Origin: Tannerella sp.
Lineage (GTDB): Bacteria; Bacteroidota; Bacteroidia; Bacteroidales; Tannerellaceae
NCBI GenBank assembly: GCA_031285685.1
Contig: JAITVS010000043.1
Location: 1 to 52,817 of the forward strand
Direction: 5' to 3'
DNA: 52,817 nucleotides
Shown: in pieces, positions 1,787-51,516 of the stretch
Layout of the letters: every line of letters begins with the position of its first letter
How positions within the stretch are numbered: the first letter of the stretch is position 1
The notes under the pieces: model-generated
Databases searched by the model: none
Told to the model about the DNA's origin: nothing
What the model saw: only the letters and a program-made list of their open reading frames with translations
Made by a program: the position numbers and the translations under genes

Positions 1787-2524
1787 TTATTTCATCCATG
1801 TTGCCGTCGCACGGCAGATAGCCTTTTCCTCAAAACAAATTGCCATATGATACTGATCCGGTTCTGTCTCTTTTTTATGCAAGGTAAGCGGCATACCATA
1901 CCGTCCTTCAGACAGATACGAAATTTCAAAGCGTCTTACCTCCTTCTCCCGGAATAAATCCAAATCAAACAAATCCAGCAAATGCTCCATATACTTAATA
2001 CTATTGAAATGCCCGTTTATATCCAGATCGCTATATTTCACCTGATACGGGATGCCATCGGATTCCGCTTCTATTGCCGCGATCTTCCCCGGCTTCTCTA
2101 TCGGACAGATGCGATCAGATAAATAGACACTTAACGCTTCCGTATCAAGCGGAGTAGGACGACGCGTCCGGATATCGATAGCCGCCCAGATCGAACGCGC
2201 ATAAGCAACAGTACCCCCCGTACGATCCGTCAGTTCAAAACAACGGCTTGTAAAAAGACGTCCGACCTCATCAATCCAGGTATACAGGGTTATCGGCTCC
2301 GACATTTCCGGATAACGGATCATCTCTATTGCCAGCCGCGAGAGCACCCATGCCGTATCTTTTTCCGTCATATCATTAAAACCAAAACCCCGTTGAGATG
2401 CATGATTCGACGCCGCATGCAACAGATAGTTCCCTATCATAGGAATAGTGACCCGCCCTCTGAAATCAAGCAGGTACGACTCCGTTTCGAAATCAAACTT
2501 TCCTATTTTTTCAAGCTTATTCAT
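1787..2524 (-). CDS. acyl-ACP thioesterase
   Basis: Family members of this FatA/FatB-like enzyme release fatty acids from acyl carrier protein. The 245-residue product fits a double hot-dog fold. The N-terminal half contains the FRGRVTIPMIGNYL region. The C-terminal half holds a DLDINGHFNSIKYMEHL stretch, which carries the Asp/Asn/His residues expected at the active site. The ATG overlaps the end of ilvN by 4 bases, so translation is probably coupled. Its position inside a branched-chain amino acid operon is unusual in general but suggests a link to branched-chain acyl products, because Bacteroidales use valine- and leucine-derived primers for iso-fatty acids. That link is inference, and substrate preference cannot be read from sequence. 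Confidence 0.88.
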   Translation of the reverse strand: MNKLEKIGKFDFETESYLLDFRGRVTIPMIGNYLLHAASNHASQRGFGFNDMTEKDTAWVLSRLAIEMIRYPEMSEPITLYTWIDEVGRLFTSRCFELTDRTGGTVAYARSIWAAIDIRTRRPTPLDTEALSVYLSDRICPIEKPGKIAAIEAESDGIPYQVKYSDLDINGHFNSIKYMEHLLDLFDLDLFREKEVRRFEISYLSEGRYGMPLTLHKKETEPDQYHMAICFEEKAICRATATWMK

Positions 2525-3159
2525 GCATTTCTGTCCAATTTACTTTCCATAGCCGATAACATATCGCTCAGGCGCTCCACTTTACTTTTTGTAATAGCAA
2601 TACGTCCGGAACGTATAAACTGAAGAACACCGATGCGTTCACTTAATTCACGAAACAAAGACTGGGTTTCCTCGTAGTGTCCGTTCTTTTCCAGTACAAC
2701 ACAATCTTCACTTACTTCAAGGACCCGTGCATTGTATTTCCGGAGAAGGCTCTCTACGCCATCCATCTTAATAAAAAGTTCAGTACTCAGTTTGTATAAA
2801 GCGATCTCCTGATAAACAAGATCTTCATCGGTATTATAATAGGCCTTAAGGATATCTACCCGTTTATCGATCTGCTTAACTACCTTTTTCATCGTTACCT
2901 CATCCGCAAATGTTGTAATCGTAAATTTATGAATACCCGCGATAGCGGAAGGTGAGACTGATAAAGTTTCTATATTCAGCTGACGACGTGTAAATATGAT
3001 GGCTATCTGATTAAGCAAGCCGACCGTATTTTCTGAAAAAATGATTACTGTAAACAGTTTTTTTTCCTGCTCATCCATCAAACCCGCCGGTTCTGCAATA
3101 TGTTTGCCTATAGGCTTTTCAACCGCCTTCTTTATTGATTTCTTATCATTCGTTTTCAT
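2521..3159 (-). CDS. ilvN: acetolactate synthase, regulatory small subunit
   Basis: This is the regulatory subunit that binds branched-chain amino acids (valine in well-studied cases) and activates and feedback-controls the IlvB catalytic subunit. An ACT domain begins near residue 35 (KKLFTVIIFSENTVGLLNQIAIIF), with the NIETLSVSPS segment after it, and a C-terminal domain follows. At 212 residues it is longer than the roughly 160-residue enterobacterial form, mainly through a Lys-rich N-terminal extension of about 30 residues and a longer C-terminus. It lies 21 bases after ilvB and overlaps the thioesterase gene by 4 bases. The identification rests on the ACT domain and on the operon position. 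Confidence 0.93.
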   Translation of the reverse strand: MKTNDKKSIKKAVEKPIGKHIAEPAGLMDEQEKKLFTVIIFSENTVGLLNQIAIIFTRRQLNIETLSVSPSAIAGIHKFTITTFADEVTMKKVVKQIDKRVDILKAYYNTDEDLVYQEIALYKLSTELFIKMDGVESLLRKYNARVLEVSEDCVVLEKNGHYEETQSLFRELSERIGVLQFIRSGRIAITKSKVERLSDMLSAMESKLDRNA

Positions 3160-3180: not shown

Positions 3181-4878
3181 TTAATAAAGCATTTCCGTAA
3201 TACTACCTCCGGCCGGAACCATGGGGTAAACCATACCGCGTTTTTCCACATTTACTACCAGAAGATAGGCGCCCTTATAGTTCAACATTTCACGAATCGC
3301 ACCATCAAGTTCTTCTCTCTTCTGTACTTCACGCGCTCCGAGTCTAAACGCTTTCGCAATAGCGACAAAATCCGGATTCTCCATCTCGGTAGCAGAGTAA
3401 CGCTCTTTGAAAAACAATTCCTGCCATTGACGTACCATTCCCAGAAAATTATTATTCAGAAGAACGATCTTTATATCTAATTTTTCCTGCATGATTGTGC
3501 CCAGTTCCTGCAAAGTCATCTGCATACCGCCGTCACCTACGAACAAACAAACGGTTCGATCGGGAACTCCGAACTTTGCCCCTATCGCTGCAGGAAGGCC
3601 AAATCCCATTGTTCCCAGTCCGCCGGACGTAACAACACTACGTGTCTTCGTGTACTTAAAATAACGCACGCCCATCATCTGATTTTGTCCGACATCGGTA
3701 ACAAGAACAGCTTCATTACCCGTTGCCTCCGAAACTTTACGTACGACTTCTCCCATTCGCAGGTATCCGTCAACCGGATTTATTTCTTTCTCTATAATCT
3801 TACGATATTCTTCCTTTTCATCCGTATCAAACGAATCGATCCACTTCGTATGTTTGGCCGATTTCAACAATTTTGTGATCTCCCGCAATGAATCTTTTGC
3901 ATTTCCAAGAACCTTCACATCCGTCTTCACATTTTTATCCATTTCCGACACATCAATGTCCAGATGAATGACTTTGGCCTGTTTTGCGTAAGTATCCAGA
4001 TTTCCCGTCACACGATCGTCAAAACGCATACCAATTGCAATCAGCACGTCACATTCGTTTGTTTTACGGTTAGGTCCTATATTTCCATGCATACCCAGCA
4101 TACCTTTATTCAACCGGTAATCCGAAGGCATGGCTGAAAGGCCGAGTATAGTCGAACCGGCCGGGATATCCGCTTTTTCCAAAAACGCTTTCAGTTCCTT
4201 TTCCGCACCGCTCAATATCACTCCCTGCCCTATCAGTGCAAACGGTTTCTTCGCACTATTAATCAACGCTGCAGCTTTCTGTACCCTTTCCGGATCAATC
4301 TCCGGCCATGGCTGATAACTGCGCACAAAATGAACCGGTTTGTAAACATAGTCCACCCCTCCTATCTGGGCATCTTTCGCTATATCAATAACCACAGGCC
4401 CGGGACGACCTGTCGAAGCGATGTAAAATGCGCGCGATACAGCCCATGCTATATCCTCGGCGCGACGTACCTGGTAAGCCCATTTTGTAATAGGGAGCGT
4501 TATACCTATCACATCTACTTCCTGAAAAGCATCCGTTCCCAGTAACGACGAAGGCACCTGACCGGCAATAACCACCATCGGAGTACTGTCAAGCATCGCA
4601 TCGGCTATACCTGTTATAGTATTCGTCGCACCGGGGCCCGAAGTGACCAGGGCGACTCCGACTTTACCGCTTACACGTGCATACCCCTGTGCTGCGTGCG
4701 TAGCACCCTGTTCATGACGGACAAGCACATGACGTAACTCATCTTTATAATCATAAAGCTTGTCATAAATAGGAATAGCCTGTCCCCCGGGATAACCGAA
4801 TATGCATTCAACACCTTCGGCTATCAACGTTCGAAGCAAGGCTTCCGAACCGGTTATTTTATTCGATTTCGATTTCAT
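3181..4878 (-). CDS. ilvB: acetolactate synthase, catalytic large subunit
   Basis: This thiamine-diphosphate enzyme condenses two pyruvates, or pyruvate and 2-oxobutyrate, to the acetohydroxy acid that starts branched-chain amino acid synthesis. The catalytic glutamate sits in RHEQGATHAA (about residue 56). The ThDP/Mg2+ motif runs from GDGGMQ (about 448) to NNN about 27 residues later. The frame can be extended upstream to a TTG at 4896 that overlaps the ilvD stop. I chose the ATG at 4878, giving 565 residues, because it yields a normal N-terminus (MKSKSNKITGSEALL) and sits 14 bases after the ilvD stop. It is the second gene of the operon and pairs with ilvN downstream. Confidence 0.96.
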   Translation of the reverse strand: MKSKSNKITGSEALLRTLIAEGVECIFGYPGGQAIPIYDKLYDYKDELRHVLVRHEQGATHAAQGYARVSGKVGVALVTSGPGATNTITGIADAMLDSTPMVVIAGQVPSSLLGTDAFQEVDVIGITLPITKWAYQVRRAEDIAWAVSRAFYIASTGRPGPVVIDIAKDAQIGGVDYVYKPVHFVRSYQPWPEIDPERVQKAAALINSAKKPFALIGQGVILSGAEKELKAFLEKADIPAGSTILGLSAMPSDYRLNKGMLGMHGNIGPNRKTNECDVLIAIGMRFDDRVTGNLDTYAKQAKVIHLDIDVSEMDKNVKTDVKVLGNAKDSLREITKLLKSAKHTKWIDSFDTDEKEEYRKIIEKEINPVDGYLRMGEVVRKVSEATGNEAVLVTDVGQNQMMGVRYFKYTKTRSVVTSGGLGTMGFGLPAAIGAKFGVPDRTVCLFVGDGGMQMTLQELGTIMQEKLDIKIVLLNNNFLGMVRQWQELFFKERYSATEMENPDFVAIAKAFRLGAREVQKREELDGAIREMLNYKGAYLLVVNVEKRGMVYPMVPAGGSITEMLY

Positions 4879-4892
4879 ATATACAAAAGTTG

Positions 4893-6731
4893 TCAATTGT
4901 CAATTATTCTTACTCCTCCCTTATCTGCGGAAGCTACCATTTTTGCATAAGCCTGTAATGCTTTCGATATTTTCCGGTCACGGACAGGCTTCCATCCTTC
5001 CGGACCTTTTGCATTTTCAGCATTACGGCGCAAGCTAAGCTCGGAGTCGCTCAATTTCACATTGATTGCTCTCGACGGAATATCGATTTCAATCAGATCT
5101 CCGTCTCTCACCAGGCCAATAGCACCACCCGATGCCGCTTCCGGAGAAACATGCCCGATACTCAACCCCGATGTACCGCCGCTAAAACGGCCGTCCGTAA
5201 TAAGCGCGCACGCTTTACCTAAGTGCATCGATTTGATATAGGATGTCGGGTAAAGCATCTCCTGCATACCCGGCCCTCCTTTCGGCCCTTCATAAACAAG
5301 CACAACAACATCTCCGCTTTCTACTTTTCCTCCGAGAATTCCTTCACAGGCAGCTTCCTGCGACTGGAAAACTTTTGCCGGACCGCTGAAATGCCATATG
5401 CTTTCGTCAACACCTGCCGTTTTAACAACACAGCCGTCAACGGCTATATTCCCTTTCAGGACAGCCAACCCTCCATCTTTTGAATACGCATGCCTGATAT
5501 CACGGATGCACCCTCCGGCGCGATCGTCATCAAGTGTATCATAATTAGTCGCCTGCGACCCCATCACAATATTAAACACCCCTGCCGGAGCGCTTTTATA
5601 GATTCTCAGGGCCTCGTCCGAAACATCAGGACCGGTTATATCATACATTCTTATCGCTTCTTGAAGACTCATTCCGTCTACACGCTTTACCAAAGTATCA
5701 AGCAAACCGCCTTTTGCCAATTCTCCCAGGATAGCAATAATACCTCCGGCACGGTTCACATCCTGTATATGATACCTTTGCGTATTGGGAGCGACTTTAC
5801 AAAGACACGGCGTTTTCCGCGACAAACAATCAATATCATCCATCGTAAAATCGACTCCGGCCTCATTGGCCACCGCCAACAGATGAAGCACCGTATTGCT
5901 CGATCCTCCCATCGCGATATCAAGCGTCATCGCATTCAGGAATGCTTCACGTGTGGCAATACTCAACGGAAGAACAGAATCATCCCCATCGCGGTAATAT
6001 TTATAAGCATTCTCCACAATCAATTTTGCCGCATCACGGAATAGCTGTATACGATTCGCGTGTGTAGCAACTACTGTGCCGTTTCCGGGCAACGCCAATC
6101 CGATCGCCTCATTCAGGCAGTTCATCGAATTGGCTGTAAACATTCCGGAACAACTTCCACAGGTAGGGCATGCATTTTCCTCAATCTTCGTCACCTCATC
6201 ATCGCTTACCGAGGGATCTGCCGATTTAATCATCGCGTCAATCAGATCCAGATGCTGTCCGTTCCACTCGCCCGCTTCCATCGGTCCGCCCGAAATAAAA
6301 ACAGCCGGTATATTGAGACGCATAGCGGCCATTAACATCCCCGGCGTTATTTTGTCACAATTACTGATGCATACCATTGCATCCGCCTTATGGGCGTTCA
6401 CCATGTATTCCACACTATCCGCAATAAGATCACGCGACGGTAAAGAATAAAGCATTCCGTCATGCCCCATCGCAATCCCGTCATCAATAGCGATCGTGTT
6501 AAATTCCGCTGCAAAACAACCCAGCTTTTCTATTTCGGCTTTAACCAACTGGCCGACTTCGTGAAGATGCACGTGCCCCGGGACAAACTGTGTAAACGAG
6601 TTGACGATGGCTATAATCGGCTTACCCATCTGTTCTTTTTTCATCCCGTTGGCGGCCCATAAAGCTCTGGCACCGGCCATCCGGCGTCCTTGTGTACTGA
6701 TAGAACTACGTAATTTCATCTTAACTTGCAT
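4893..6731 (-). CDS. ilvD: dihydroxy-acid dehydratase
   Basis: IlvD is an iron-sulfur dehydratase making the 2-oxo acids of valine and isoleucine. The 612-residue product shows the family cysteines: LGCFAAEF (about residue 72), [10 protein letters not shown] (about 125) and [10 protein letters not shown] (188-194). The C-terminal [19 protein letters not shown] motif is also present. Two in-frame starts are possible, ATG at 6731 and ATG at 6719 ([14 protein letters not shown]); the second resembles the usual family N-terminus and leaves more room after the attenuator hairpin, which ends only 9 bases before the first ATG. It is the first structural gene of the operon and lies directly behind the leader peptide and terminator. 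Confidence 0.96.
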
Positions 6732-6740
6732 ATATTTAAC

Positions 6741-6771
6741 AAAAAAACCCTCCTCTATAATCAGAGAAAGG
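6741..6771 (-). terminator. ilv attenuator terminator hairpin
   Basis: On the minus strand a 9-bp stem with two G-U pairs (CCTTTCTCT / AGAGGAGGG) and a 6-base loop is followed by seven T residues, ending 9 bases before the first ilvD ATG. Its 5' arm can instead pair with GAGAAAGG at 6810-6817, which overlaps the leader-peptide stop codon. That alternative pairing makes this an attenuator and not a plain terminator. Confidence 0.85.
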
Positions 6772-6815
6772 CTTACATAAAATAAATATTTCGTACGACT
6801 ACATACAAACCTTTC

Positions 6816-6893
6816 TCACGCTTCGCGACACAAGACCACGACGACGACGTTAATTGAACGCAAAATAGAAAGGTTTTGAATAGCAATCATCAT
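6816..6893 (-). CDS. ilv operon leader peptide (attenuation)
   Basis: This is a 25-codon ORF ending in SILRSINVVVVVLCREA. It has five consecutive valine codons, flanked by isoleucine and leucine codons, just before the stop. It lies between a good Bacteroidetes promoter (6914-6944) and ilvD. Segment 1 (6867-6876, inside the ORF) can pair over 10 bases with segment 2 (6807-6816, at the stop codon). Segment 2 can pair with segment 3 (6763-6771), and segment 3 with segment 4 plus the T-tract forms the terminator. Shortage of charged Val/Leu/Ile tRNA should stall ribosomes on the valines, free segment 2 to form the antiterminator and let ilvDBN-thioesterase-ilvC be transcribed. The start may be either of two adjacent ATGs (6893 or 6890). 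The mechanism is inferred from sequence and by analogy with enterobacterial ilv attenuation. Confidence 0.85.
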   Translation of the reverse strand: MMIAIQNLSILRSINVVVVVLCREA

Positions 6894-6913
6894 TTTTCCA
6901 TTAAAATCCGGGG

Positions 6914-6944
6914 CAAAGTTAATATTTCTTTTTAGAATTCCAAA
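6914..6944 (-). promoter_or_regulatory. ilv operon promoter
   Basis: On the minus strand TTTG (6941-6944) is followed after exactly 19 bases by TAACTTTG (6914-6921), matching the Bacteroidetes sigma-ABfr consensus. Transcription would start about 12-16 bases before the leader-peptide ATG. Confidence 0.75.
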
Positions 6945-10368: not shown

Positions 10369-10746
10369 ATATCAAAAATTTATTAAAAAATTAGCTTCTA
10401 TTAAAACAGGCTGTCTGCTGTGAAATTTTCAGTATCCTGTTCTTGGTAATGTCATAAATCGCCTGAATCAGTTATTCACATATGTTCCTGTTTTATAATA
10501 TAAAGATTGTTTTACAAAGATAATTAAAAAGAATAAAATAAAAACAAAAAAGAACATATTAAATTCCGTTTTGTTCCTAAAAATTAAGGAATACTTAAAC
10601 ATCGCACAATCGGATATGTCACCCGGAAAATTACGCAACAGGCTCCGGAAAGACTTGTAAGAACGAAAAAAAATCACTTTCTTTGTTGCTCCATATTTTT
10701 AAAATACGGATGAGCGATGATAAAGAATCTGATACATAACAAAGCC
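10369..10746. other. intergenic region between divergent genes
   Basis: No credible gene is present; a 69-codon minus-strand ORF here is low-complexity and unsupported. It contains the putative minus-strand promoter at 10515-10548. For the plus-strand fucosidase gene only a partial -7 like TTTCTTTG near 10678-10685 is visible. Confidence 0.5.
10515..10548 (-). promoter_or_regulatory. putative promoter of the barrel-protein gene
   Basis: TATCTTTG (10515-10522, minus strand) with TTTG 22 bases upstream (10545-10548). The -7 match is full but the spacing is slightly long. It would give a leader of about 140 bases. Confidence 0.4.
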
Positions 10747-12114
10747 ATGAAATACAACAAAAAACCAAAAACATTGCTTATAATCACCGGTCTTATATTA
10801 TGCATTTACGGAAAATTATCGGCACAGGAAACAGCCGTCCCGTCGGAATTAACGGAAAAGGAATTTGACAAACGAATGGAATGGTTCGGCAAAGCCAAAC
10901 TGGGCATCTTCATCCATTGGGGCATCTATGCGGTAAATGGAGTTTCCGAAAGCTGGTCGTTCTTTAATAACTACCTGCCTTATGACGAATATATGAAACA
11001 AACGGAAGGTTTTACCGCAGAAAATTACAATCCCGGAGAATGGGTGAAACTGATTAAGGAGAGCGGAGCGCAATACACCGTCATTACGACAAAACATCAT
11101 GACGGGGTGGCTTTATGGGATACCAAAGCTGGGAACCTGAGCGCCCGAAATAGTACTCCCGCCGGTCGCGATCTGATAAAACCCTTTGTGGAAGAAGTTC
11201 GCAAACAAGGACTAAAACTCGGCTTTTATTACTCATTATTAGACTGGTCGCATCCGGACTATCCGAACAAGACCCGTACGGAAAAACGGTATGAAAACGA
11301 TACCGCACGCTGGAAACGTTTCGTACGGTTCAACTTTGACCAGTTAAAAGAACTCAACCGGACGTGGAAACCGGACCTTTACTGGTTCGACGGCGACTGG
11401 GAACAGAGTGCGGAAGCATGGGAAGCTAAATCAATTGTGCAGATGCTCCGGCAGGATAACCCGGGTGTTATATTAAACTCACGCATACAGGGCTATGGTG
11501 ACTATGCCACACCGGAAATAGGCGCGCCGGTGGTCCGCCCGCAACATAAATACTGGGAGTTGTGTATGACAATGAACGATTCGTGGGGATATCAGTCTAC
11601 CGACCGGAATTACAAATCGGCGAATCAGCTATTAAGAACATTTGTCGACTGCCTGAGCATGGGAGGAAACCTGCTGCTTGATATCGGCCCGAAAGCCGAC
11701 GGGACAATTCCCGACGAACAAAAATCCATATTAGAGTCATTCGGAAGATGGATATCCAAACACCAAGAAGCAATCTATGATACACGCGCCGGTATTTCCA
11801 AAGTTCATTTTAACGGATACACGACATTAAACGAAAAAGGAGATGTATTATACCTGTATCTTCCCTACAAACCGATCGGAGGAGTGGAACTGAAAGGAAT
11901 AAAAAACAAAATCCAGCGCGTATGGGTGGTAGGAAACGGCTCCATGCTCTCATTCAAGGAATATAATAAACCTTACTGGTCGCAGGTTCCCGGAAACGTA
12001 TACATAGACATCCCGGAAAATGTACTTGATGAAGAGATAACCATACTGGCCGTTTTACTGGACAGTCCCGTACAGCTGTATACAGGTGTGGGGAATGTGA
12101 TCGAAAGCAATTAA
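10747..12114 (+). CDS. secreted GH29 alpha-L-fucosidase
   Basis: GH29 enzymes remove alpha-linked L-fucose from glycans with retention of configuration. The product has a signal peptide (MKYNKKPKTLLIITGLILC...KLSA), then the family N-terminal signature GIFIHWGIYAVNG, TTKHHDGVALWDT, and the segment PDLYWFDGDWE, whose Asp (11389-11391) is the expected nucleophile. A C-terminal beta domain follows. The frame is open from an ATG at 10717, but that start would put a long polar stretch before the signal peptide, so I prefer 10747 (455 residues). The second fucosidase gene follows directly. Host mucin or milk-type glycans are likely substrates by family knowledge; linkage preference is unknown. Confidence 0.9.
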   Translation: MKYNKKPKTLLIITGLILCIYGKLSAQETAVPSELTEKEFDKRMEWFGKAKLGIFIHWGIYAVNGVSESWSFFNNYLPYDEYMKQTEGFTAENYNPGEWVKLIKESGAQYTVITTKHHDGVALWDTKAGNLSARNSTPAGRDLIKPFVEEVRKQGLKLGFYYSLLDWSHPDYPNKTRTEKRYENDTARWKRFVRFNFDQLKELNRTWKPDLYWFDGDWEQSAEAWEAKSIVQMLRQDNPGVILNSRIQGYGDYATPEIGAPVVRPQHKYWELCMTMNDSWGYQSTDRNYKSANQLLRTFVDCLSMGGNLLLDIGPKADGTIPDEQKSILESFGRWISKHQEAIYDTRAGISKVHFNGYTTLNEKGDVLYLYLPYKPIGGVELKGIKNKIQRVWVVGNGSMLSFKEYNKPYWSQVPGNVYIDIPENVLDEEITILAVLLDSPVQLYTGVGNVIESN

Positions 12115-12155
12115 TGCCGGATATAAACAATAACATTTTAAACAATAATATTACT

Positions 12156-13493
12156 ATGAAAACAAAAAACATTATTCTATGCGCAATACTTTCCTTAGCC
12201 GGAAGTATCTCTGCAATGGCGCAACCGGGTTATACGCCCTCGAAAGAAAACATGCAGTCCCGGGAAACATTTCAGGATGACAAGTTCGGAATATTCATCC
12301 ATTGGGGTATCTATAGCATGCTTGCGGATGGGGAATGGATTCTGCACAGCAAGAACCTGAACCATAAAGAGTACGCAAAACTGGCATCCGGCTTCTATCC
12401 GTCAAAATTCAGTGCGAAAGAATGGGTTTCCGCCATTAAGGCGTCAGGAGCCAAATACATCACAATTACATCACGCCATCACGACGGATTTTCTATGTTC
12501 AACACCCGATATTCGGATTACAACATTGTCGATGCTACGCCTTTCAAACGCGATATTATAAAAGAACTCGCCGACGAATGCCGGCAACAGGGCATACGCC
12601 TGCACTTTTACTATTCCCATCTGGATTGGACAAGGGAAGACTACTACCCTTTGGGGCGTACCGGAAAAAATACGGGCCGGACTTCGCACGGCGAATGGAA
12701 AGACTACTGCATGTTTATGAACAACCAGCTGACGGAACTGCTCACCAACTATGGCCCCATCGGCGCCATCTGGTTTGACGGAATGTGGGACAAGGATATT
12801 TATGAGGACGGCATGACGGCCAAAACCTGGAATCTTGACGAACAATATAGTATCATCCACAAGTTGCAACCGGGATGCCTTATCGGAAACAATCATCACA
12901 TAACACCATTTCCCGGAGAAGATATACAAATATTCGAACGCGACCTGCCGGGAGAAAACAAAGCAGGACTATCCGGCCAGAATATAAGTCCCCTTCCGCT
13001 TGAAACCTGCGAAACGATGAACGGGATGTGGGGTTACAGAATTGCCGATCAGAATTACAAATCTCCGAAAACCCTCATTCAGCTCTTAGTAAAAGCAGCC
13101 GGAAAAAATGCGAATCTATTGATGAATGTCGGCCCTCAGCCAAATGGAGAACTGCCTGCCGTATCTGTAGAACGCCTCCGTGAAATGGGCGAATGGATGA
13201 AGATCTATGGCGAAACTATTTACGGAACACGCGGTGGCGTCGTAGAACCGCACGACTGGGGGGTAACCACACAAAAAGGAAAAACTCTCTATGTGCATGT
13301 TCTGAACTTAGAAGACAAAGCCCTGTTCCTTCCGTACAGCGGAAACAAACTGAAAAATGCGGTGTTGTTCCATAACCGCGAAGCCGTAAAATTCACACAG
13401 GATAAAGACGGCATTCTCCTCAAATTCAAAGAAGTACCCACCGATCCCGACTATGTAATCGAACTGACTTTCACGAACGAACTTAACAAATAA
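12156..13493 (+). CDS. secreted GH29 alpha-L-fucosidase (second copy)
   Basis: This is a second GH29 enzyme, clearly related to but diverged from its neighbour. The signal peptide is MKTKNIILCAILSLAGSISA. Family motifs follow: GIFIHWGIYSMLADGEW, TSRHHDGFSMFNT and GAIWFDGMWDKD, with the expected nucleophile Asp at 12777-12779 (about residue 208). The frame opens at an ATG at 12114 that overlaps the previous stop (TAATG), but only the ATG at 12156 puts the signal peptide at the N-terminus, giving 445 residues. Two adjacent, non-identical fucosidases suggest complementary linkage preferences. No SusC/SusD pair accompanies them here. A strong terminator ends the unit at 13534. Confidence 0.9.
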   Translation: MKTKNIILCAILSLAGSISAMAQPGYTPSKENMQSRETFQDDKFGIFIHWGIYSMLADGEWILHSKNLNHKEYAKLASGFYPSKFSAKEWVSAIKASGAKYITITSRHHDGFSMFNTRYSDYNIVDATPFKRDIIKELADECRQQGIRLHFYYSHLDWTREDYYPLGRTGKNTGRTSHGEWKDYCMFMNNQLTELLTNYGPIGAIWFDGMWDKDIYEDGMTAKTWNLDEQYSIIHKLQPGCLIGNNHHITPFPGEDIQIFERDLPGENKAGLSGQNISPLPLETCETMNGMWGYRIADQNYKSPKTLIQLLVKAAGKNANLLMNVGPQPNGELPAVSVERLREMGEWMKIYGETIYGTRGGVVEPHDWGVTTQKGKTLYVHVLNLEDKALFLPYSGNKLKNAVLFHNREAVKFTQDKDGILLKFKEVPTDPDYVIELTFTNELNK

Positions 13494-51443: not shown

Positions 51444-51516
51444 AGCCGAAACCCGGACTCGAACCGGGGACCTATTCATTACGAATGAATTGCTCTACCA
51501 ACTGAGCCATTTCGGC
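51444..51516 (-). tRNA. tRNA-Thr (anticodon CGT)
   Basis: On the minus strand the sequence folds as a standard tRNA: acceptor stem GCCGAAA / TTTCGGC, D arm GCTCAGTTGGTAGAGC, anticodon stem ATTCA / TGAAT with loop TTCGTAA, and T arm CCCGGTTCGAGTCCGGG. The anticodon CGT reads ACG threonine codons. CCA is not encoded. An imperfect GAATCCG / CGGATTC inverted repeat lies upstream at 51567-51595. A TAACTTTG box at 51704-51711 (TTTG 18 bases upstream) is a possible distant promoter. Confidence 0.95.

Follow-up and report, generated by a model that had tools for sequence, protein, structure and literature searches.

A leader region in front of the ilv operon

The 52,817-nt stretch of DNA analysed here (the window) carries, between a promoter and ilvD, a small open reading frame (ORF) and a set of alternative helices, and the question that this locus raises is whether a translating ribosome decides there if RNA polymerase goes on into the genes for branched-chain amino acid synthesis. 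Judging from sequence comparison, we consider it very probable (about 0.93) that the region controls the ilvD-ilvB-ilvN-thioesterase-ilvC operon as a ribosome-mediated transcription attenuator. An earlier interpretation made from the letters of the window (the sequence-only reading) had proposed an attenuation device, and this is well supported: a leader ORF with cognate codons, a protector helix, an antiterminator and a terminator are all present and all recur in other loci. The parts themselves, their recurrence and a partner-specific fit of helices 2:3 and 1:2 across loci were all observed here.

Read along the minus strand from 6944 to 6731, the order is promoter, leader ORF, alternative helices, T tract and ilvD. 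The promoter (TTTG-N19-TAACTTTG, 6944-6914) has the form of the consensus Bacteroidota promoter, with the -33 element TTTG at 6941-6944 lying 19 nt 5' of the -7 element TAACTTTG at 6914-6921. The leader ORF, MMIAIQNLSILRSINVVVVVLCREA, has 25 codons and spans 6816-6893 (ATG 6893-6891, TGA 6818-6816). Its control codons at 6831-6848 comprise five valines (6848-6834, GTC GTC GTC GTG GTC) and a leucine (6833-6831), and this VVVVVL run is an end-product codon cluster of the kind that characterizes the attenuator class. Direct reading of the sequence confirmed the promoter and the 25-codon ORF with a five-valine run next to leucine, both of which had been proposed, and segments 1, 2 and 3 as well as the seven T were all found where the sequence-only reading had placed them. 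GTC, which makes up four of the five leader valines, is the least used valine codon (18%) in ten window ORFs. Of 28 distinct leader cores of the family, 26 share a CTA leucine at one site; CTA accounts for 4% of leucine codons in the ten window ORFs, a usage from which that of the family genomes themselves may differ.

A 3-codon ORF (ATG GAA AAA TGA, 6901-6890) overlaps the leader start in the window, and the relative L082 has an upstream ATG in frame with its leader. The true leader start may be the ATG at 6890, because L082, the nearest relative, has ATA at the first position.

Directly 3' of the leader, on the same strand, lies an operon of cognate biosynthetic genes: ilvD, encoding dihydroxy-acid dehydratase (4893-6731, ATG at 6731; NCBIfam NF009103, TIGR00110), ilvB, acetolactate synthase large subunit (3181-4896; TIGR00118), ilvN, acetolactate synthase small subunit (2521-3159; TIGR00119), an acyl-ACP thioesterase gene (1787-2524; PF01643, PF20791) and ilvC, ketol-acid reductoisomerase (710-1753; TIGR00465). 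The thioesterase gene thus sits inside the ilv operon, between ilvN and ilvC. Elsewhere in the window, two adjacent genes of the alpha-L-fucosidase family (PF01120) occupy 10717-13493 on the plus strand. By IlvD, the nearest named relative is a Tannerella MAG (L002, 86% identical).

Alternative helices in the window

Segment 1 (6867-6890, minus strand, as are all segments) lies inside the leader ORF and consists of two blocks, 6876-6867 (AAACCTTTCT) and 6890-6883. Segment 2 (6795-6817) overlaps the leader stop and can pair either with segment 1, through 6816-6807 (AGAAAGGTTT) and 6802-6795, or with segment 3, through 6817-6807. Folding assigns segment 3 (6762-6774, including CCTTTCTCT at 6771-6763) as the 5' arm of the terminator and segment 4 (6745-6757) as its 3' arm, and the T7 tract is at 6741-6747. 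The sequence-only reading had located helix 1:2 correctly but made it 10 bases long; the second block, 6890-6883 with 6802-6795, adds 8 bp. Helix 2:3, for which at least 8 bases had been claimed, reaches up to 11 bp (GAGAAAGGTTT, 6817-6807, with AAGCCTTTCTC, from 6774). The 3:4 terminator is present and followed by seven T as proposed, but the 9 bp assigned to it were too few: the hairpin at 6774-6745 has 12-13 bp and about -14 to -15 kcal/mol, and the T7 tract ends 9 nt before ilvD.

Folding of the 169-nt leader gives -42.8 kcal/mol (z -2.77), and 1 of 200 shuffled sequences was equally low. The segment 2/3 pattern RAGAAAGG-N25-55-CCTTTCTY occurs at one place only in the genome assembly, the one described here, and a search across the assembly found no second place. 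A histidine leader was also sought, via CAYCAYCAYCAY, and in the ten loci inspected of 37 places no leader followed by a terminator was found.

We modelled a ribosome stalled on the valine run, with its edge assumed to lie 17 nt after the start of the P-site codon. For a stall on any of Val1-5, the RNA up to segment 3 folds as 2:3, at -16.3 to -17.4 kcal/mol. Once segment 4 is included, the 3:4 fold is the most stable even with the stalled ribosome in place (about -26 kcal/mol), and therefore, under this model, antitermination must be kinetic.

Recurrence across Bacteroidota

Regions upstream of ilvD were screened with a detector that requires an ATG-initiated ORF of 10-34 codons, at least one third Ile/Leu/Val and including a run of three, followed 5-80 nt later by a terminator hairpin. 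Of 206 regions 135 passed, or 131 of 201 distinct regions once five duplicates were removed, and 70 of the 201 fail. Among controls, none of 206 reverse complements and none of 256 other 400-nt stretches of the window passed; 2 of 412 shuffles (first-order resamplings) and 1 of 231 random windows of the named loci did.

The named loci were 80, from which 15 were dropped as outside Bacteroidota by title; the family sample covered 80 of 104 other ilvD-bearing family genomes, the order sample 40 of 41 remaining ilvD-bearing genomes (G262 left out) and the class sample 20 of 27 places above the cut-off. Five regions are shorter than 250 nt (L003, L034, L035, L045 and L137), and four of these count as fails. 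For part of the 60 class and order regions a wrong frame was used in guessing the ilvD start, which shifts the region's end and should leave the leader covered.

Besides the window, the detector passes 38 of 65 named loci, 56 of 77 distinct family regions and 31 of 40 order-wide regions, the last from genomes that each carry a different family label. Outside the order Bacteroidales, 4 of 18 class regions pass. Absence of the leader and pairings from close relatives, which the sequence-only reading itself had named as telling against it, is not what we find: both recur in close relatives and across Bacteroidales, with exceptions in the window's genus. Two of the passes, L047 and L197, look like false positives, and four near misses that fail the filter (L099, L125, L139, which has a GTG start, and L151) have a leader-like ORF and a hairpin by inspection. 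Eight of the ten loci titled Prevotella or Prevotellaceae fail, one of them with a region of 195 nt; the two that pass are L003, with a leader like that of the window, and the spurious-looking L047. Val, Leu and Ile make up 54% of leader residues after the start in the 131 loci, a proportion to be read in light of the selection of these loci for such content. The motif CCTTTCTC is present in 91 of 131 hairpins. Four loci outside Bacteroidales (L172, L173, L180 and L181) have a branched-chain leader-like ORF and a terminator upstream of ilvD, and CCTTTCTC occurs in none of their hairpins.

Some relatives (for example L086, L118, L125 and L127) have a short or interrupted T tract, as might be expected if the leader ORF instead controlled ilvD translation or mRNA stability and the hairpin were no terminator in the cell. 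This is highly unlikely in view of the window's own 12-13 bp hairpin with T7 so close to ilvD, and of the recurrence of hairpins with T tracts in 131 of 201 regions.

Partner-specific pairing between loci

Under the attenuator reading, segment 3 must fit both segment 2 and segment 4, and for this reason we used a partner test, in which a locus's own segment 2 and the segments 2 of other loci are compared against its own segment 3. In 75 divergent loci, own partners pair at -12.37 kcal/mol vs -9.27 for mismatched partners (sd 0.26), and 0 of 20,000 permutations were as low. The 42 of these loci without CCTTTCTC in the hairpin arm gave -11.67 vs -7.77 kcal/mol (sd 0.37; 0 of 20,000). Examples of such pairs are GAGAATGG with CCATTCTC in L053, GGAGGGC with GCCCTCC in L189, and TGAGGCACT with AGTGCCTCA in L180. 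For helix 1:2, own partners again fit better than mismatched ones in 74 divergent loci (-13.97 vs -10.87; 0 of 20,000) and in 55 family loci (-19.73 vs -16.59; 0 of 20,000); the difference is weaker in 13 genus loci (182 of 20,000).

The sequence-only reading had called for a covariation check across relatives, which succeeded for the wider loci and for helix 1:2 in the family and did not succeed within the genus. In a family alignment of 39 of 47 rows, helix 1:2 has 24 cells changed on both sides, compared with a shuffled mean of 6.4 (0 of 500). The genus alignment has 12 rows, namely 11 genus genomes and L003, with L086, L125, L128, L151 and L158 left out, and covariation of 1:2 and 2:3 in these rows did not exceed shuffles, so that the case rests on the wider comparison. 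Pairing in the genus alignment is 79.6% for 1:2 and 93.2% for 2:3, against at most 52.9% and 65.9% when the partner is slid. Tested against shuffles of the same locus, 2:3 reached p <0.05 in 73 of 91 loci; 1:2 did so in only about half of the 135 loci examined. The shuffles in these within-locus tests, and in the promoter, Shine-Dalgarno and stop-geometry tests below, preserve base composition only.

Geometry and translation of the leaders

The sequence-only reading placed segment 2 on the leader stop codon; the TGA at 6818-6816 does overlap 6817-6807, and the same arrangement is common: in 106 of 131 loci segment 2 begins no more than 6 nt from the leader stop, compared with 22% in shuffled sequence. 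Among these 106 loci, the distance from the last control run to segment 2 is 9-16 nt (5th-95th percentile) with a median of 11, and in the window it is 13 nt. A ribosome covers roughly 12-15 nt ahead of it. Given this spacing and this reach, segment 2 is predicted to be only just exposed in front of a ribosome that has stalled on the last control codons, and covered by one that has reached the stop.

Synonymous change in leader codons is above expectation, at 0.61 vs 0.22 in 33 rows and 0.38 vs 0.24 in 8 rows, and this excess would bear only indirectly on translation of the leader. It matters for a second alternative, in which binding of a protein or small molecule to the leader RNA works the attenuator and the leader ORF is incidental. 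Antiterminator-terminator pairs are common to several attenuator classes, and Rfam gave a weak match to the PyrR binding site (RF00515, E 0.048); a PyrR-controlled attenuator was rejected, the match scoring 28.2 bits against a gathering score of 54. A search of the window with Rfam, at the gathering score and at E up to 10, found no leader family, T-box included, and the only match at the gathering score is a tRNA at 51444-51516. With no Rfam family at the gathering score for the leader, a branched-chain ORF that recurs with a synonymous excess and a segment 2 tied to the leader stop, we regard control by a bound protein or small molecule as very improbable.

Of 135 loci, 115 have a TAnnTTTG box no more than 60 nt 5' of the leader ATG, compared with an expectation of about 5% from shuffles, and 107 of those 115 have TTG or TTTG at the -33 place, a count that stands without a chance level. 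The median distance from box to ATG is 29 nt, and in the window it is 20 nt. The absence of a Shine-Dalgarno sequence, which the sequence-only reading had set against the parallel with enterobacterial ilv leaders, is correct for the window but not unusual, the leaders of relatives being alike in this: anti-Shine-Dalgarno duplex energy, measured for 133 of 135 leaders, is no better than in shuffled sequence. A makes up 51% of the 20 nt that precede the leader ATG. Both features agree with the account of Bacteroidetes given in the introduction of PMC7366714, and the missing Shine-Dalgarno sequence is therefore normal for the phylum and no oddity of the window's leader.

Dismantled and tandem variants

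Among 31 ilvD-bearing genomes of the window's genus, inspected by eye, 16 are intact, eight have the hairpin only and seven have neither, so that 15 of 31 are without a leader. In the hairpin-only genomes (L089, L109, L119, L122, L134, L144, L150 and L155) the promoter box upstream of ilvD is directly followed by the CCTTTCT hairpin, with no leader ORF and no segments 1 and 2. Of these, L109 and L119 have a whole T tract, L122 and L134 have one of five T, and the remaining four have a spoiled one. Mapped on an IlvD tree with 37 rows, the hairpin-only state takes five changes, four of them forced by well-supported branches, and for this reason it most likely arose several times, by independent losses. 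The intact L151 falls among hairpin-only genomes, and its device may accordingly have been regained or transferred.

These dismantled versions in the same genus, eight of 31 with promoter and hairpin only and seven with neither, could be taken to mean that the window too holds a relic, whose parts persist while termination has become constitutive or has been lost. We consider this extremely unlikely, as all parts are intact in the window and in its nearest relative L082, and the fold is of low energy.

Three loci, from Marinifilum (L060), Labilibaculum (L073) and a Marinifilaceae MAG (L078), have two branched-chain leaders and two terminators in series. The second ATG comes about 14 nt after the first T tract, a gap that leaves too little room for a promoter. 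The 400 nt of these three loci contain no exact TAnnTTTG box at any place, the stretch before the first leader included; its absence at the second leader is weak evidence because the first leader lacks it as well.

A broader history can be offered tentatively, at somewhat less than even odds: one ancestral attenuator would have controlled branched-chain synthesis across much of Bacteroidales, and perhaps beyond; it would be free of Shine-Dalgarno sequences, keep about 11 nt between the last control codon and the antiterminator, have been doubled in series in some lineages, and have been repeatedly dismantled in the window's genus, where the remaining promoter and hairpin would form a new element, acting either to stabilise the 5' end or as a terminator without a leader.

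Proposed mechanism and its implications

From this arrangement we infer the start site, the stalling, the termination and the amino acids sensed. Transcription would start about 13-16 nt before the leader ATG, as suggested by the box, and a ribosome would start on the A-rich leader without a Shine-Dalgarno sequence and follow RNA polymerase. Under a shortage of charged tRNA-Val (or Leu, Ile), the ribosome would stall on the valine run and break helix 1:2, leaving segment 2, which begins 13 nt past the last control codon, free just ahead of it. Segment 2 would then pair with newly made segment 3, segment 4 would be left without a partner, and the polymerase would enter ilvD. When branched-chain amino acids are ample, the ribosome would reach the stop and cover segment 2, so that 3:4 would form and the polymerase would stop at the T7 tract, whose end is 9 nt short of ilvD. 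If the leader is not translated, 1:2 would form and 3:4 would again terminate.

If this is true, many Bacteroidales tune valine, leucine and isoleucine synthesis through ribosome stalling, and transcription-translation coupling is required on leaders that lack a Shine-Dalgarno sequence, for which the locus would be a recurring natural device to study. The series of intact, tandem and dismantled forms could reveal how such switches arise and vanish.

Comparison with known systems

Among the matches listed for open-licence papers, no title or abstract opening describes a leader of ilv genes from Bacteroidota. Vitreschak et al. 2004 (FEMS Microbiol Lett 234:357) are said to mention, in their abstract, candidate attenuators in Bacteroidetes/Chlorobi; if so, the kind has already been predicted in the phylum.

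In Flavobacterium psychrophilum, likewise of the Bacteroidota, PMC9723704 infers leader-peptide attenuation upstream of amino-acid biosynthesis operons and name structured elements upstream of pheA, hisG and others; the case differs in that 'ilv' is absent from the main text of that paper. For Bacteroides thetaiotaomicron, PMC7366714 describes long 5' UTRs that contain short ORFs and likens these ORFs to attenuating leader peptides; here too 'ilv' is absent from the main text, and the example given is another gene. The Bacteroid-trp motif (RF01692; PMC2864571) is likewise a predicted cis-regulatory RNA in Bacteroidetes but has no match in the window. Further afield, the Corynebacterium ilvBNC leader (PMC10272879, PMC11857589) likewise places an ilv operon under uORF or attenuator control; it belongs to the Actinobacteria, and its operon is ilvBNC, in which ilvD is not first.

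The kind of device is already known; among the matches listed, those for Bacteroidota are general mentions, and no Rfam family matches it. The enterobacterial ilv operons ilvGMEDA and ilvBN are controlled by leader-peptide attenuators. Like these, the window has a run of branched-chain codons in a leader ORF, followed by protector, antiterminator and terminator before the ilv genes. Unlike these, it comes from another phylum, has no Shine-Dalgarno sequence and a very short 5' UTR, and includes an acyl-ACP thioesterase gene in the operon; the likeness described here is one of layout.
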